DNA of 26,296 bases from a virus. Numbering within the stretch: position 1 is the first letter of the stretch; every line of letters begins with the position of its first letter. The notes beneath the pieces are model-generated. The model had not been told where the DNA came from and did not search any database. It was given only the letters and a program-made list of their open reading frames with translations. A program made the position numbers and the translations under genes. This document shows positions 10,807 to 21,013 of the stretch, in pieces. Location of the stretch: the IMG/VR virus record IMGVR_UViG_3300021165_004471, positions 1-26,296 of that record; one strand, 5' to 3'.

Positions 10807-11586
10807 TTAATTATCCAAATTGATTGTTGAGCCTTTAATTTGAACAGCACCTGAACTGTCCAAAGTTGTTTCTCCTTTACATTTAACTGTAAACATTGAA
10901 CCATTAATTGATGTTTCACCTGTATCAGTTAATATATTATTAGTTGAAGAAATTTTTAGGCTACCCGTGGTTTTTATAATACGATCATATGCAAGACTTT
11001 TATCAGGACCTAATACTGTTGTTTGGTTTTTTCCGAGAACAAATAAACTATTTCCATCATATATTGATGAATTATTCCCTCCGTGAATTTCCAATCTCCT
11101 ACCAGTGGATATATCCACTTCGCTTTTGCCTTTAATTGTATGTTTATGGTCACCTTGAACTGTAATTTTTTCATTAGTGCCAATGTTCATTGCATATTCA
11201 TCCGATATTTCTGCAATCATTTGACCTCCAATTTTTGATCGTTTGGTGCCTACAATTGTTTCACTGTAATCACCATTAACTTCAAGATTATAGTTTCCAT
11301 TAACAACTGTATTACAATTTCCCATTACGGTAATATTAACATTACCGCTAACGGTAATATTGTCATCACCAAAAACAACTTTAAATCCACTACCCAAAAC
11401 CGTTAATGTATGATCACCAGTAGCATTTATTTCCTCACTGGTTCCGGATTTGTGCGCACGATATAGTCTTTCATTACCAAAAGTATCATCCACTTCCATC
11501 ACGTGACCACTACGTGTTTTAGTAACGCTGTTGTAAGGATAAACCGAATCACCTTTAGCTACTGGAGCTGACCATTCACTTGCCAT
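10807..11586 (-). CDS. gp5C-like beta-helix needle protein (VgrG-type)
   Basis: From the ATG at 11584-11586 the protein has 259 residues. After a short N-terminus (MASEWSAPVAKGDSVYPYNS) it runs into repeats of about eight residues such as DDNITVSGNVNITVMGNCNT and VNGNYNLEVNGDYSETIVG, then GKSEVDISTGRRLEIHGG. These are the G/N-D-x-x-x-x-V-x rungs of the triple-stranded beta-helix that forms the T4 gp5 C-terminal needle and VgrG spikes. In T4 this needle is part of gp5; here it is a separate gene directly after gp5. A TTG codon at 11602-11604 overlaps the gp5 stop (TTGA) and could add six residues. I prefer the ATG because a GATAAATA late promoter variant lies between the two starts. The needle role is confident. 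Confidence 0.88.
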   Translation of the reverse strand: MASEWSAPVAKGDSVYPYNSVTKTRSGHVMEVDDTFGNERLYRAHKSGTSEEINATGDHTLTVLGSGFKVVFGDDNITVSGNVNITVMGNCNTVVNGNYNLEVNGDYSETIVGTKRSKIGGQMIAEISDEYAMNIGTNEKITVQGDHKHTIKGKSEVDISTGRRLEIHGGNNSSIYDGNSLFVLGKNQTTVLGPDKSLAYDRIIKTTGSLKISSTNNILTDTGETSINGSMFTVKCKGETTLDSSGAVQIKGSTINLDN

Positions 11587-11594
11587 AGTATTTG

Positions 11595-11602
11595 TATTTA
11601 TC
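11595..11602 (-). promoter_or_regulatory. Late promoter variant GATAAATA
   Basis: One base away from TATAAATA, overlapping the end of the gp5 gene and ending 8 nt before the ATG of the needle gene. It may allow extra late transcription of the needle and following genes. Confidence 0.45.
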
Positions 11603-12593
11603 AAACAATTAAAGATGCAACACTTCGTACACTTTTAAGATATCTAGTTTTTTCGTAAACACCATTGCCTTCTCTGCTTCCTGCCGCATTTGTATTACCT
11701 TCAATACATTTAAAAGAACCGTTTGAATCGCTATTTGTTGCGGCAATACCAATATGACTAAAACTAAACACAACGAGATCTCCGGCATTAATTGTTCTTG
11801 GATTTACTATAAGTTTTGCAATCGAAGGATTTGATTGCGCCCATGACTCATATCCACCACCTTTAAATGCTGATGCGCTTTTAGGTCTAATATCATCAGT
11901 CAATACTCCAGTTTGTTGAACACACCAAGAAGTAAATGCAGCACACCATGGCGCACGATCATTATAACCTCCAGGATAACTTGTTGCGCCCCAAAATTCC
12001 GAAATTCCAGGCCCTTGGTTTACAGATGTTTCATATGTATTTCCTACTCTACTTTTTGCAATGGCAATCATTTTTTCTCGTATACCTCCTGCGACATTTG
12101 GAGGAGGAGGAGGATTTTCCAATGTTGATAACGGATTACTTCCACCTACGACATTTCCGCCATAACTTGCAATTCCACCAGATTGACTTCCACTGGCTGC
12201 TCCGGCTGGAATATCATTTCCGCCACTGATACCGTATGAACCATAAGGATCTTTAAATCCTACACCGCTCATTGAACCAATACCATTATCATAACCACCA
12301 ACATCAGCAGCTGATGCAATACTGCTTAATATTACAGGATCTTGCATTTCAGTTCCATCTCTAAAAAATCCAAATACCCAACTTCCAGGAACCAATCCGG
12401 TCGCACTGGTACCTACGCCGCTTGTACTTGCACTTGTTACAGGTAGTAAACAAGTTGACCATGGAAGATCTTCCGTGGGAAGTTCGGCTTTATCATCTGT
12501 ATGAAAACCTAAACAACGAACTCTTACTCTACCCGCTCCGGTCGGATCGGATACATCTTCAACAACGGCAGTAAACCATGTATTAATTTTCAT
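11601..12593 (-). CDS. gp5: gp5-like baseplate hub protein with CHAP peptidoglycan hydrolase domain
   Basis: Residues 1-95 form the OB-fold typical of gp5/VgrG hubs: WFTAVVEDVSDPTGAGRVRVRCLGFH, then DLPWSTCLLP, then LVPGSWVFGFFRDGTEMQDPVIL. Residues 96-167 are a Gly/Ser linker ending in five prolines. Residues 170-330 are a CHAP-like cysteine amidase/endopeptidase of the kind seen in TIGR02594 proteins: APWCAAFTSWCVQQTG gives catalytic Cys217, GDLVVFSFSHIGIAATN gives His280, and IEGNTN (298-302) supplies the third polar residue. In T4 this position in gp5 holds a lysozyme, so the tail-associated enzyme here would cut peptide or amide bonds rather than glycan strands. It sits just after the gp27-like hub gene, as expected for partners. 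The cut for T4-style maturation is not visible. Confidence 0.88.
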   Translation of the reverse strand: MKINTWFTAVVEDVSDPTGAGRVRVRCLGFHTDDKAELPTEDLPWSTCLLPVTSASTSGVGTSATGLVPGSWVFGFFRDGTEMQDPVILSSIASAADVGGYDNGIGSMSGVGFKDPYGSYGISGGNDIPAGAASGSQSGGIASYGGNVVGGSNPLSTLENPPPPPNVAGGIREKMIAIAKSRVGNTYETSVNQGPGISEFWGATSYPGGYNDRAPWCAAFTSWCVQQTGVLTDDIRPKSASAFKGGGYESWAQSNPSIAKLIVNPRTINAGDLVVFSFSHIGIAATNSDSNGSFKCIEGNTNAAGSREGNGVYEKTRYLKSVRSVASLIV

Positions 12594-16866: not shown

Positions 16867-17499
16867 ATGGATAATATACAACAGTTTGTTGCATTGATTG
16901 CAAATAAAGGAGGAGTCGCTAAAAAAAATCGTTTTAGAATTAGGATATATTTGAACAATGAATTGGCGCCACTTTCGGCATCAGGTGACGGAGGTCGTGA
17001 TATGTCCTTGCTATGTGAAAGCGCAAGTTTTCCAAGTAAAACAATAACTTCAATTGATTATAGCATTTGGCGCAATCCTATAAAAATACCAACAGGTTTT
17101 ACCAATGAAGATGTCACAGTTGTTTTCCACTTAACAAATGATTATTACATTAAAAATATATTTGACTTATGGTTAAATTCAATAGTTGATGTTGATACGT
17201 ATTTTGCTGCGTATGATACAAAATTTAAAACTACGGTGGAAATTTTTCAACTTGACGAACAAGATCGTGCAGTTTATGGTGTGACATTAAAAGATGCATA
17301 TCCAATTTCAATGAGTGCTGTTGAATTGGATAATACAGTAACTAACGTTACTCAAAAATTAACAGTTGATTTTACATATAGCACATGGGTTCCAGCCGGT
17401 AAGGATAAACTTGATAGTATTGATACTTACACTGGTGATATTAATTTTACTCCGGACGAACAACCTAATAATCCAAATTTTGACGCAGTTCTTTCTTAA
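16867..17499 (+). CDS. Tail-tube-fold protein, likely gp54-like baseplate tail tube initiator
   Basis: The 210-residue protein has the arrangement of gp19/gp54 tube proteins: NRFRIRIYLN (about residues 22-31), LCESASFPSKTITSIDYSIW (about 49-68), NEDVTVVFHLTNDYYIKNIF then DLWLNSIVD, and a closing GVTLKDAYPISMSAVELD followed by LTVDFTYSTW. These correspond to the first strand, the P-loop with 'SFPS', the central beta-helix-strand and the C-terminal strand of the tube fold. T4 gp19 has 163 residues and gp54 320. Position between gp48/gp4 and gp26/tape measure favours gp54 (T4 order 26, 51, 27, 28, 29, 48, 54) over the major tube protein, which in T4 sits beside the sheath gene. An acidic/Pro C-terminus (about 190-210) follows. 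The tube fold is confident; the choice between gp54 and gp19 is not. Confidence 0.7.
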   Translation: MDNIQQFVALIANKGGVAKKNRFRIRIYLNNELAPLSASGDGGRDMSLLCESASFPSKTITSIDYSIWRNPIKIPTGFTNEDVTVVFHLTNDYYIKNIFDLWLNSIVDVDTYFAAYDTKFKTTVEIFQLDEQDRAVYGVTLKDAYPISMSAVELDNTVTNVTQKLTVDFTYSTWVPAGKDKLDSIDTYTGDINFTPDEQPNNPNFDAVLS

Positions 17500-17547: not shown

Positions 17548-18255
17548 ATGCCATTACCAATCCTAGAATCGTCCAAGTACACCGTAATAATTCCTTCAAC
17601 AGGAAAAACAATTGAATATCGTCCGTTTCTTGTTAAGGAGGAAAAAATACTCTTAATCGCGCAAGAATCAAATGATTCAACTCAAATGTTTTCATCAATG
17701 AAAGAAATTATTCGTTCGTGTACATTTGAAAAACTTGATGTTGATTCCATTACAAGTTATGACCTTGAATATATTTTCTTAAAACTTCGTTCAAAAAGTA
17801 TTGGTGAAGTTAGTGATATAAACTTGGAATGTTCTGAGTGCAAAACATTAAATCCTGTCAGCATTGTTATTGATGAAATTGAAGTTAAAATTGATCCGAA
17901 AGCAAGTAAAACCGTAATGTTAACTGAAACAGTCGGTGTTAACTTACGTCATATTCGTGTTAAAGATATGGCGCAATTGTCGGATGATAAAAAACCACAA
18001 AGTGAAATTATCAATAATGTTGTTATGGCTTCCATTGAATCCATTTTTGATGCAGACACCGTTTATCCTAGTGACAAATCAACACCTGCGGAATTAACCA
18101 CATTTATCAATTCATTAAATCGTGAGCAAATGGGAAAAATTGAAAAGTTCATTGAATCAACACCTAAGGTTCAAAAAGATATTGACTTTAAATGCTCAAG
18201 TTGTGGCCACGATAACAGCATTAATGTTTCCGGCACACAATCTTTTTTCGTATAA
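17548..18255 (+). CDS. gp26: gp26-like baseplate hub / tail assembly chaperone (zero-frame product)
   Basis: The 235-residue protein belongs to the T4 gp26/gp51 type (T4_baseplate family): PLPILESSKYTVIIPSTGK, EYRPFLVKEEKILLIAQES, SMKEIIRSCTF, SYDLEYIFLKLRSKSIGE. It has two CxxC pairs, Cys95-x-x-Cys98 and Cys216-x-x-Cys219, which could together hold a zinc ion. T4 gp26 has 208 residues. It lies directly before the tape measure gene, the place occupied by tail assembly chaperones such as lambda G. The zero frame ends TCT TTT TTC GTA TAA, and the TTTTTTC there is a canonical -1 slippery heptamer leading into an open frame of 60 codons. The 48-nt gap upstream has no clear late promoter, so it is probably transcribed from 16838. 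The role in hub or tape-measure assembly is inferred. Confidence 0.82.
   Translation: MPLPILESSKYTVIIPSTGKTIEYRPFLVKEEKILLIAQESNDSTQMFSSMKEIIRSCTFEKLDVDSITSYDLEYIFLKLRSKSIGEVSDINLECSECKTLNPVSIVIDEIEVKIDPKASKTVMLTETVGVNLRHIRVKDMAQLSDDKKPQSEIINNVVMASIESIFDADTVYPSDKSTPAELTTFINSLNREQMGKIEKFIESTPKVQKDIDFKCSSCGHDNSINVSGTQSFFV
18243..18249 (+). promoter_or_regulatory. -1 ribosomal frameshift slippery site TTTTTTC
   Basis: The heptamer T-TTT-TTC is in the correct register with the gp26 codons (TCT|TTT|TTC) for tandem slippage. It sits inside the only window (18225-18255) where the gp26 frame and the downstream -1 frame overlap without stops. The zero-frame stop TAA is two codons later. I see no strong downstream hairpin. 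Confidence 0.75.
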
Positions 18256-18431
18256 GCCTCTCGCATGAATCATTGGCAAATTACTATCAAACTAATTTTG
18301 CTTTAATGCAACATCACAAATACAGTTTAAGTGAGCTTGAAGGCATGATGCCATGGGAGAGGGAAATTTACGTCAGCTTGCTATCAAACTATATTAAAGA
18401 GGAAGAATTAAAGCAGAAAAATAATAAATAG
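18249..18431 (+). CDS. -1 frame C-terminal extension of gp26 (gp51 / lambda GT-like)
   Basis: Reading the -1 frame from the slip gives 60 codons ending with TAG at 18429-18431. It begins RISLSHESLANYYQTNFALM and continues with YSLSELEGMMPWEREIYVSL and IKEEELKQKNNK. The pattern 'SHESLANYY...NFALM..H.YSLSELE.MMPWEREIYV.LL...IKEEE' is strongly protein-like and resembles the T-part of tail assembly chaperones in tailed phages. No start codon exists before the conserved part; the first in-frame ATG (18306) would drop the SHESLANYY segment. The natural product is therefore a 294-residue gp26-extension fusion. In T4, genes 26 and 51 are neighbours, so this may be the gp51 counterpart. The frameshift has to be tested by experiment; a separate 41-residue protein from 18306 is the alternative. 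Confidence 0.72.
   Translation, partial: RISLSHESLANYYQTNFALMQHHKYSLSELEGMMPWEREIYVSLLSNYIKEEELKQKNNK
18423..18430 (+). promoter_or_regulatory. Possible late promoter variant AATAAATA
   Basis: One base from TATAAATA, 6 nt before the tape measure ATG (18437). It overlaps the last codons of the -1 extension. In this AT-rich DNA the match alone is weak evidence, and the tape measure could also be read from the upstream promoter. Confidence 0.35.
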
Positions 18432-18436
18432 TATAT

Positions 18437-21013
18437 ATGGCCGATACAGCACCTATAACAGAAACAGGAAAGGCTTTAGCTCAAATTTCAGCACAATTAG
18501 CGTCCTCGAAAGATGGCGGTTACTTGCAAGCAATAGCAACTAAACTTAATGCCAAGTCGGGAAGCGCCCAAAATGATCCTTTTGCTGGATTTAAAATACC
18601 GCAACTTACAGATATTGCAAAAGGTTTGACGTTCGGTTTGGCTCCTGGGCTGATTAAAAAATCGGTGGCAGGAATGCAAATATTCATGGAATCATTGAAT
18701 GCAATGGACATTGATGATGTTGAAAAATCCAGCAAGATAATACAATTGGTTGATGGGTATAGTACTGCCATTAGAAATTTTGGGGAAATCCCTTGGATGA
18801 AAGCATTCAAAGGAACATTTTTATTAGAAAAATTTACAGACAGATTTAAAAAAATTGGAGCTGTTTTGGGAAGTAGAGAAAACATAAATGCACTAATACC
18901 GTTTAAAAACTTTGCGATGTCTTTTGGTATACCATTAAAACTTATAGGAACCGCATTATCATCCTTTGCTAAAATACAATGGACTTCTGTCTTTATAAGT
19001 ACAATCTTTTTGAATAAAATAATGTCCTCATTGGCAAAAATGGGTAATACCTTTGGTCAAAATCAAGGAACTTTTGAAAAAATGGGTGAGATAATGGAAA
19101 AGTTTACAACTCCATTAGAACAATTCATAACAGCGTTTAACAATATGAAATTTGTTAAAATGTTTATTGGAGTAAAAGTTTTGGAAAAAATCATAGCTCC
19201 TTTGGTAAATGTTGCAAAGGGTATTTCAAAAAATAAAAAAATACTTGAAAGATTTGGAGCAACATTAAATGTCTTTGCCACACCATTAAAGAAGTTTGTA
19301 ACGGCGTTTAACAATATGAAATTTGTTAAAATGTTTATCGGAGTAAAAGTTTTGGAAAAAATTATTCAACCTTTGGTAAATGTTGCAAAGGCTGTTTCTA
19401 AAAATAAACAAACGTTCGAGCGATTTGGAGAAACATTATCCAAAATTACCGAACCATTAAAAGTGTTTGGTGAAACGTTTGATAAAATTGGCAATGCATT
19501 ACTTAAAGCTTCCGTTTCATTACTAATAGTTTCCGGATCGTTAGTACTGGCAGCATTTGGCTTAAAACAAATTGGAGAAATTAATTTGGAACAAGCTGTT
19601 GCGGGTATTGTTACGTTAGGAGTTATGGTGGGAGCGGTATACGGTTTATCCAAGATCGCAGAGAAAGCGATAAAAGGTGCTGCAGCATTGGCAATCGTTG
19701 CTGGATCATTAGGACTGGCCGCGCTATCTTTAAAATTATTCGCCGGCATTGAATGGCCCGCGTTGGGGAAAGCTGGTGCAGCTTTGGGCGGGTTGGTAAC
19801 TGCATTGGCATTAATAGGTGTAATTATGATGGGCCCACTTGGTGCAGGACTTTTAACGGGAGTGGCAGCTTTGGCTATTGTTGGTCTTGCTATGATACCA
19901 TTTGCTGCAGGTATGGCAATATTAGGTGCTGTAAATTGGAAAGGTTTTGATGGTATATTGGGTGCGATTGCAAGCCTTGCCGCTGGATTATTTTTGTTAT
20001 CGGTTGGAGTTCCCGCACTGGTACTATCAGCAATTGCGATCATACCATTTGCATTAGGTATGGCAATATTAAGTGCGGTAAACTGGGATTCAATTACAAA
20101 AAGCGGTGCGGCATTAACAGCCCTAGGTGAAGGAGTTGGCAACATAAGCTTCTTTGCTCTTGCAAAAGCCGCATTAGGTATAATACCATTTGCCGCAAGT
20201 ATTGTTGCATTAAGATTGGCCGTTGGTAAAGATAATAAAATATCTACATTTTTAGAAAAATTCAATAAAGGTTTAAAAGATTTAAAAGGTGAATCTTTAT
20301 TGCTGGCGGCCAAAGGCATATTGGCATTATCCGGTGCTCTTGTTGCATTTGCAGGAGCACAAGTTGTAGCAGGTATTGGAAACTTAGTAGGCAAAATACT
20401 ACGTTTTGGTGGAGATGGTCCTATTGAACAACTTATAAAATTGGCAAAACATGGTTACAATTTAAGTATTCTTGGTACTGGTGTTAAAGATCTTGCCGCA
20501 GGCCTTAAAACATTAACTGGAATTGACAGCGAACTTGATATTCTAGATAATTTGGCCGATAGGTTTAAAGGATTTGACGCACTTGATCCTACAGGAATTA
20601 AAGCTTTTGCCGAAGGTCTCAATGTGCTTGTCACTGCACTTACCGCATTGTCTCAATTGGATGGTAAATTGTCTGTTCTTGATCAAATACCTTTTGATAA
20701 ACTTAAAAGTTTAAGTGAATCAATAAAACCAGGAGCTCCATTAATTCAAATTGTAAACGGTCTTAAAGAATCCGAACAATCAAAAGAAACCTCGATGCTA
20801 TTACAAAAAGGTATTCAATCAAACGCACCAACGGTAGGAGCTCAATTAAGAGAATCAGGCTCCTCAATGAATTCGTCAACAATAATTGTTAATAATAATA
20901 ACGGTGGTAATGTTACCAACAACAGTTCATCATCAAGTAATGTGAACAACAACGGTTCGGTTAACACTCCTATTATTACGGCAAGCGGAAGTGGAATGTT
21001 TATCGCTGAATAA
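18437..21013 (+). CDS. gp29: Tail tape measure protein (gp29-like)
   Basis: This 858-residue protein follows the gp26/extension pair as tape measures do. It has a long helical N-terminal part, a strongly hydrophobic Gly/Ala-rich middle (about residues 360-610, including ALAIVGLAMIPFAAGMAILG and AIAIIPFALGMAILSAVNW), and a C-terminal tail rich in Asn, Gly and Ser (NNNNGGNVTNNSSSSSN). An almost identical 57-residue unit occurs twice in tandem (about residues 232-288 and 289-345), containing AFNNMKFVKMFIGVKVLEKI. T4 gp29 has about 590 residues, so this tail may be longer; at the usual 1.5 angstrom per residue the protein would span roughly 130 nm. The hydrophobic segments may interact with the inner membrane after injection. 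I cannot align it to T4 gp29; the call rests on features and order. Confidence 0.8.
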   Translation: MADTAPITETGKALAQISAQLASSKDGGYLQAIATKLNAKSGSAQNDPFAGFKIPQLTDIAKGLTFGLAPGLIKKSVAGMQIFMESLNAMDIDDVEKSSKIIQLVDGYSTAIRNFGEIPWMKAFKGTFLLEKFTDRFKKIGAVLGSRENINALIPFKNFAMSFGIPLKLIGTALSSFAKIQWTSVFISTIFLNKIMSSLAKMGNTFGQNQGTFEKMGEIMEKFTTPLEQFITAFNNMKFVKMFIGVKVLEKIIAPLVNVAKGISKNKKILERFGATLNVFATPLKKFVTAFNNMKFVKMFIGVKVLEKIIQPLVNVAKAVSKNKQTFERFGETLSKITEPLKVFGETFDKIGNALLKASVSLLIVSGSLVLAAFGLKQIGEINLEQAVAGIVTLGVMVGAVYGLSKIAEKAIKGAAALAIVAGSLGLAALSLKLFAGIEWPALGKAGAALGGLVTALALIGVIMMGPLGAGLLTGVAALAIVGLAMIPFAAGMAILGAVNWKGFDGILGAIASLAAGLFLLSVGVPALVLSAIAIIPFALGMAILSAVNWDSITKSGAALTALGEGVGNISFFALAKAALGIIPFAASIVALRLAVGKDNKISTFLEKFNKGLKDLKGESLLLAAKGILALSGALVAFAGAQVVAGIGNLVGKILRFGGDGPIEQLIKLAKHGYNLSILGTGVKDLAAGLKTLTGIDSELDILDNLADRFKGFDALDPTGIKAFAEGLNVLVTALTALSQLDGKLSVLDQIPFDKLKSLSESIKPGAPLIQIVNGLKESEQSKETSMLLQKGIQSNAPTVGAQLRESGSSMNSSTIIVNNNNGGNVTNNSSSSSNVNNNGSVNTPIITASGSGMFIAE
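19130..19400 (+). repeat. Tandem duplication within the tape measure gene
   Basis: About 100 bp from 19130 recur almost unchanged from 19301, an offset of 171 bp (57 codons). Both copies encode TAFNNMKFVKMFIGVKVLEKI followed by PLVNVAK. Differences are few and mostly silent, so the duplication looks recent or is kept similar by recombination. Confidence 0.85.

Follow-up and report, generated by a model that had tools for sequence, protein, structure and literature searches.

The window, a viral contig of 26,296 nucleotides (nt) from IMG/VR (record IMGVR_UViG_3300021165_004471, positions 1 to 26,296, meant here at its full 26.3 kb), belongs to a marine T4-like phage and carries T4-type tail genes. 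Among them is a gene 26 whose 3′ end bears an in-register run of T residues and is overlapped, in the −1 frame, by an open stretch resembling the end of T4 gp51. An earlier note, made from the letters of the window without database searches, had proposed that a programmed −1 frameshift joins the two, and the analysis described here follows up that proposal. The features at the centre of it, and the evidence by which we named them, are as follows.

17548–18255, plus strand: gene 26, encoding the short tail assembly chaperone (TAC) of 235 amino acids in the zero frame (Pfam T4_baseplate, PF12322, 2e-53; phrog_150, 7e-58).
18243–18249, plus strand: slippery heptamer T_TTT_TTC, in register TCT TTT TTC and kept across loci.
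18249–18431, plus strand: −1 extension as it would be read after a slip, 60 codons plus stop, corresponding to the conserved C-terminal portion of T4 gp51 (phrog_634, "baseplate hub assembly catalyst," E = 3.6e-29).

The last codons of gene 26 are TCT TTT TTC GTA TAA, with the single sense codon GTA separating the heptamer from the stop. The −1 frame is free of stops from 18225 to 18431, and the stretch that is open in both frames is exactly 18225–18255, with the heptamer inside it. The position and register of the heptamer and the limits of the two frames are therefore as the earlier note had given them. Its further statement that no start codon precedes the patterned part of the extension was also borne out: the earliest possible −1 start in the window is a TTG at 18273, which already lies inside the conserved SHESL motif. 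When the codons for the same Ser-Phe-Phe tail were redrawn synonymously, the heptamer appeared in 27% of the redraws; for the window alone, therefore, its presence by chance is not negligible.

To judge the heptamer beyond the window, we used two sets of related loci, the first comprising 95 loci (80 IMG/VR contigs, the window and 14 isolates) and the second 166 further loci, drawn from three additional scans and in part shared with the first. TTTTTTN stood in register at the 3′ end of gp26 in 94 of the 95 loci (as TTTTTTC in 60, TTTTTTT in 31, TTTTTTA in 2 and TTTTTTG in 1) and in all 166 of the further loci. Within gp26 bodies, by comparison, it occupied 14 of 21,315 codon positions in register, and over the last 12 codons chance alone would be expected to place it in about 0.75 loci. 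It is this conservation across loci that leads us to regard the heptamer as more than a chance occurrence. The extension lay in the −1 frame in every first-scan contig long enough to reveal it, and its nonsynonymous divergence (dN, 0.03 to 0.19) was far below its synonymous divergence (dS, 0.3 to saturated), a sign of purifying selection that was found in the −1 frame only. The alignment of gp26 loci that the earlier note had put forward as a check thus returned both a conserved heptamer and a conserved −1 frame under purifying selection.

Ackermannviridae-type relatives, whose −1 extension is not accompanied by a T heptamer, were excluded from the set. In Salmonella phage Maynard (L096, 2301–2474) and Vibrio phage K414 (L095, 2199–2399), gp26 is followed, without the heptamer, by a gp51-like −1 extension that contains a PW motif; the K414 junction reads TAATG. 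A separate observation concerns the sequence upstream of the heptamer. A Shine-Dalgarno-like GGAGG, 10 to 14 nt upstream and within the codons of an LEG motif, is common in relatives (e.g., L082, L084, L035 and L077), and GAG encodes the Glu of that motif in 25 of 39 cases, whereas its share in the gene body is 23% (p = 1e-7, with no correction for relatedness). By analogy with dnaX, GGAGG is possibly an upstream stimulator of frameshifting. It is absent upstream of the heptamer in the window, and for that reason we do not claim it for the cassette there.

We then compared the product that a slip would yield with T4-type proteins. The joined 294-residue product aligned with T4-type gp51 along its whole length (hhalign E = 7.5e-24, 242 columns), and single tblastn pieces covering its residues 23–284 matched the gp51 proteins of Klebsiella and Aeromonas phages. 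The earlier note's identification of the extension as the gp51 counterpart was therefore upheld. The first 200 residues of T4-type gp51 are in turn related to T4-type gp26 (E = 2.4e-16), and on sequence similarity T4 gp26 and gp51 are paralogues. In T4-type genomes the two are separate, divergently transcribed genes, with gp51 as the long in-frame form, and no heptamer was present either at the end of gene 26 or at the gp51 junction. In the window, by contrast, the long form is not an in-frame gene of its own. Because T4-type gp26 and gp51 are separate genes with a heptamer at neither site, T4 obtains the short form and the long form from a gene each, whereas most of the relatives sampled would obtain both from a single gene through slipping. 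Frameshifting would account for a report of cyanophage gp51 without about 200 N-terminal residues (PMC3037559): the apparent loss would follow from the making of two forms in this way. The wider statement of the earlier note, that short gp26 and a fused gp51 counterpart are made by a T4-type phage, thus found support in the window (in the heptamer, the −1 gp51 homology, the lack of a start and the tape measure gene that comes next) but does not extend to T4 itself, whose gp51 is in frame and apart from gp26.

Two genes flanking gene 26 bear on its function.

16867–17499, plus strand: tail-tube-like gene of gp19/gp54 type (phrog_3629 and phrog_45, "tail tube," E about 1e-33; annotated in relatives as "baseplate tail tube initiator").
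18437–21013, plus strand: probable tape measure gene, 858 amino acids (phrog_4372, "tail length tape measure protein," 7e-07).

The match of the 16867–17499 product to Pfam Phage_T4_gp19 fell below the cut-off. By their phrog matches, the order of the genes is tail tube, TAC and tape measure, with gene 26 between the other two. An AlphaFold2 model of gp26 (mean predicted local distance difference test [pLDDT] score of 92.8) was realigned to Foldseek's top 999 chains, and for residues 1–87 the two best of the 999 were the HK97 TAC (Z = 7.0) and YqbN (Z = 6.4), which we take to be a TAC of the XkdN family; the next chain scored 4.6. The N-terminal domain of gp26 therefore has a predicted TAC-like fold, for which the support is moderate because Foldseek alone gave no significant match. 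Two CxxC motifs in gp26, CSEC at protein positions 95–98 and CSSC at 216–219, suggest a zinc ribbon, and similar cysteine pairs occur in T4-type gp26 and gp51. Elsewhere in the window, on the minus strand at 10807–12593, a gp5-like baseplate hub/lysozyme is divided between two open reading frames (ORFs). The ORF at 11601–12593 matched phrog_430 positions 18–169 together with endolysin families, and that at 10807–11604 matched phrog_430 positions 321–537. The two meet in a TTGA, in which the downstream ORF overlaps the stop of the upstream one, and an ATG follows six codons later.

The conserved heptamer, the gp51-homologous −1 extension, the absence of an earlier start and the place of gene 26 ahead of the tape measure gene together lead us to propose that a G/GT-type −1 frameshift joins gp26 to the gp51-like extension, a reading drawn from sequence comparison to which we assign a probability of roughly 93%.

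Several observations weigh against this proposal. An ATG overlaps the gp26 stop (as TAATG or TGATG) in Vibrio phages CZ01 (L088) and EniLVp02 (L099), Rhizobium phage I1_9 (L089), Caulobacter phage Cr30 (L090) and Delftia phage W14 (L094), and one lies a few codons past the stop in P-SSM2, S-PM2, DLP6 and S-WAM1. In L064, and in no other locus of the first set, the run is interrupted (TGTTTTC), although the −1 extension there is intact. As to the fold, neither Foldseek alone, run against PDB, nor a profile search of PDB sequences gave a significant match for gp26, and the Z scores obtained after realignment lie below 8. The ATG codons, together with the public records consulted for the relatives, none of which has a joined gene and most of which show two separate genes (the extension being left unannotated in S-WAM1 [KU686210], ACG-2014d [KJ019078] and ZPAH1 [MW272540]), would fit an extension that is translated as a separate small gp51 by reinitiation past the gp26 stop. 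We consider this improbable. In most loci no start for the extension precedes SHESL, and in the window and those loci reinitiation (in the window, only at the TTG at 18273) would cut off this conserved motif; moreover, the equivalent T4 protein is a long fused form. The heptamer, in addition, is retained in all of the ATG-bearing relatives, which makes frameshifting the common factor. An ordinary start combined with loss of the heptamer, the pattern that the earlier note had set against its own proposal, was not seen among those listed. These relatives possibly make a separate small gp51 besides the fused form.

A sequencing or assembly error in the T run could also give the impression of two frames where gp26 and gp51 are one: homopolymer runs are prone to error, and T4-type gp51 is a single in-frame fused gene. 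We rejected this explanation, to which we give almost no weight, since the same run and the same −1 relation are shared by independent contigs, numbering in the hundreds, and by cultured isolates whose genomes were finished separately. Slippage by RNA polymerase rather than by the ribosome might join the frames at a site that is a run of 6 to 8 T residues. Six T residues flanked by C, as in the window, are a short run for polymerase slippage, however, and the codon register X_XXY_YYZ is fixed and a stem at ribosomal spacing, described below, is under selection; we regard polymerase slippage as very improbable. Ribosomal frameshifting at T_TTT_TTC thus remains our preferred explanation.

Stimulators of −1 frameshifting typically stand 5 to 9 nt after the slippery site (PMC5009743). 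Downstream of the heptamer we found two complementary arms that would form a stem, with a spacer in the window that falls within this range.

18257–18267, plus strand: 5′ arm of the predicted stem, CCUCUC G CAUG, 7 nt after the heptamer.
18352–18362, plus strand: 3′ arm of the predicted stem, CAUG G GAGAGG, within the codons of the PWER motif.

The core of the duplex pairs CCUCUC (18257–18262) with GAGAGG (18357–18362), and the comparison of loci places its start 6 to 7 nt past the heptamer. Third codon positions in the two arms change in concert across loci, C with G and T with A. The 125 nt past the heptamer had a mean folding z score of −2.23, against −0.45 in control stretches of the same contigs; local hairpins of 45 nt were on average no better than controls, and the signal emerged at 125 nt. 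With the 5′ arm at +4 to +11, 70% of 79 loci had a best contiguous helix that ranked within the top 5% of control positions, as did, out of sample, 57% of 77 new, nonredundant loci.

As a control for the encoded protein, synonymous codons were redrawn with the amino acid sequence kept. The stem fell within the best 5% of redraws in 60.6% of 155 loci when the 5′ arm started at +3 to +8, compared with 2.6 to 11% at seven other offsets, and the redraw test gave p ≤ 0.05 in 61% of the loci of a first set (set 1) and 58% of those of a second (set 2). For the window, the interrupted duplex (−18.7 kcal/mol) had a P value of 0.0025 and the regional fold one of 0.017, while the uninterrupted 6-bp core alone was not significant (P = 0.08). 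The stem is therefore selected beyond the amino acid content of the region. The case for it rests on these synonymous-recoding tests because covariation over the whole alignment, at an observed score of 44.8 against a tree-simulated mean maximum of 55.4, did not exceed the null; the pair 18257–18362 nevertheless ranked first of 990 third-position pairs for compensatory changes on the same branch.

The 5′ arm starts at a nearly constant position, whereas the 3′ arm lies some 30 to 150 nt downstream, depending on the lineage. It ends near +113 in most loci, at +91/92 in L051, L053, L065, L148 and L183, at +86/87 in L048, L049, L060 and EniLVp02, and at +59 in L039, L047, L070 and S-WAM1. The nearest ends are those of the P-SSM2 group and ME01 (about +35), S-PM2 (+43) and Cr30 (+29), and the farthest, at +153, is shared by L042, L045 and L151. 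We think it likely that the gp26/gp51 frameshift of the T4 superfamily involves a selected mRNA stem whose 5′ anchor is fixed about 4 to 8 nt past the slip and whose 3′ arm has been relocated, mostly within the coding sequence of the extension, and that this stem was lost where T4 split the gene.

Against the stem stand the covariation result, the roughly 40% of loci that lack a significant stem at this position, and the relatedness of the loci, owing to which the counts are not independent, although synonymous sites were near saturation between most of the pairs tried. The commonest form of the stem pairs the codons of two conserved motifs, and together with the first two of these points this would suit a stem that is a by-product of the conserved protein and stimulates nothing. 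That reading strikes us as unlikely, since redraws that preserved the protein rarely matched the observed stem and its signal was confined to the canonical spacer, also in lineages where the partner motif is a different one. We therefore favor a stem that acts on frameshifting.

Much of this system has precedents. Poly-T −1 signals are known in TAC genes of T4-like phages (PMC12846349), and poly-T frameshifting in the same gp26/gp51 proteins of the T4 superfamily is cited as known from Vladimirov, Gautam and Davidson (2022, Virology 566:9). The same work, as cited in PMC10885494, describes some T4-like phages that have, in place of frameshifting, one gene for the short form and another, fused, for the long one, which is the T4-type arrangement and differs from that of the window phage; T4 is listed as the exception to G-T frameshifting in a 2016 review (PMC5009743). 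Lambda gpG/gpGT likewise comprises a short and an extended form but uses another heptamer; we claim no sequence homology with it, and the short form in the window is larger (235 amino acids) and has two CxxC motifs. The TAC genes of Vandenendeviridae and Andersonviridae (phage Adele, PMC12846349) also have a conserved poly-T −1 site and an uninterrupted −1 frame ahead of the tape measure gene; they belong to other phage families, and the available part of that paper does not mention a downstream stem. Barley yellow dwarf virus and the IS3411 family (PMC5009743) also link the region immediately 3′ of the slip site to sequence far downstream. There, however, the loop of a nearby stem pairs with a distant loop or bulge, whereas for the phages compared here the prediction is of one stem, whose 5′ arm keeps the usual spacer and whose 3′ arm, in coding sequence, differs in place between lineages. 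The frameshift in T4-like TAC genes is thus largely known already, and what looks new is the RNA stem: a positioned stem with a relocating partner has apparently not been described before, Vladimirov et al. being judged here through the papers that cite it.

Taken together, these results suggest the following model. Most ribosomes would terminate at 18255 and release the 235-residue short TAC, while a fraction would slip back one base on T_TTT_TTC, get past the stop and continue in the −1 frame as far as 18431, giving a 294-residue long form made up of gp26 residues 1–234 and a 60-residue part that corresponds to the end of T4 gp51. The stem between 18257–18267 and 18352–18362 would probably impede the ribosome and raise the rate of slipping. 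By analogy with lambda gpG/gpGT, the short form in many copies and the long form in few would cover the tape measure protein, recruit tail tube subunits and then leave. The occurrence and rate of slipping, its stimulation by the stem and the part played in tail assembly are all steps that we infer.

If the stem is real, these phages offer a natural series in which to study how a frameshift stimulator can stay in place yet exchange its partner, all within sequence that codes for a conserved protein. T4 would be the odd one out in a superfamily most of which, as sampled here, frameshifts to obtain the two forms of its chaperone.
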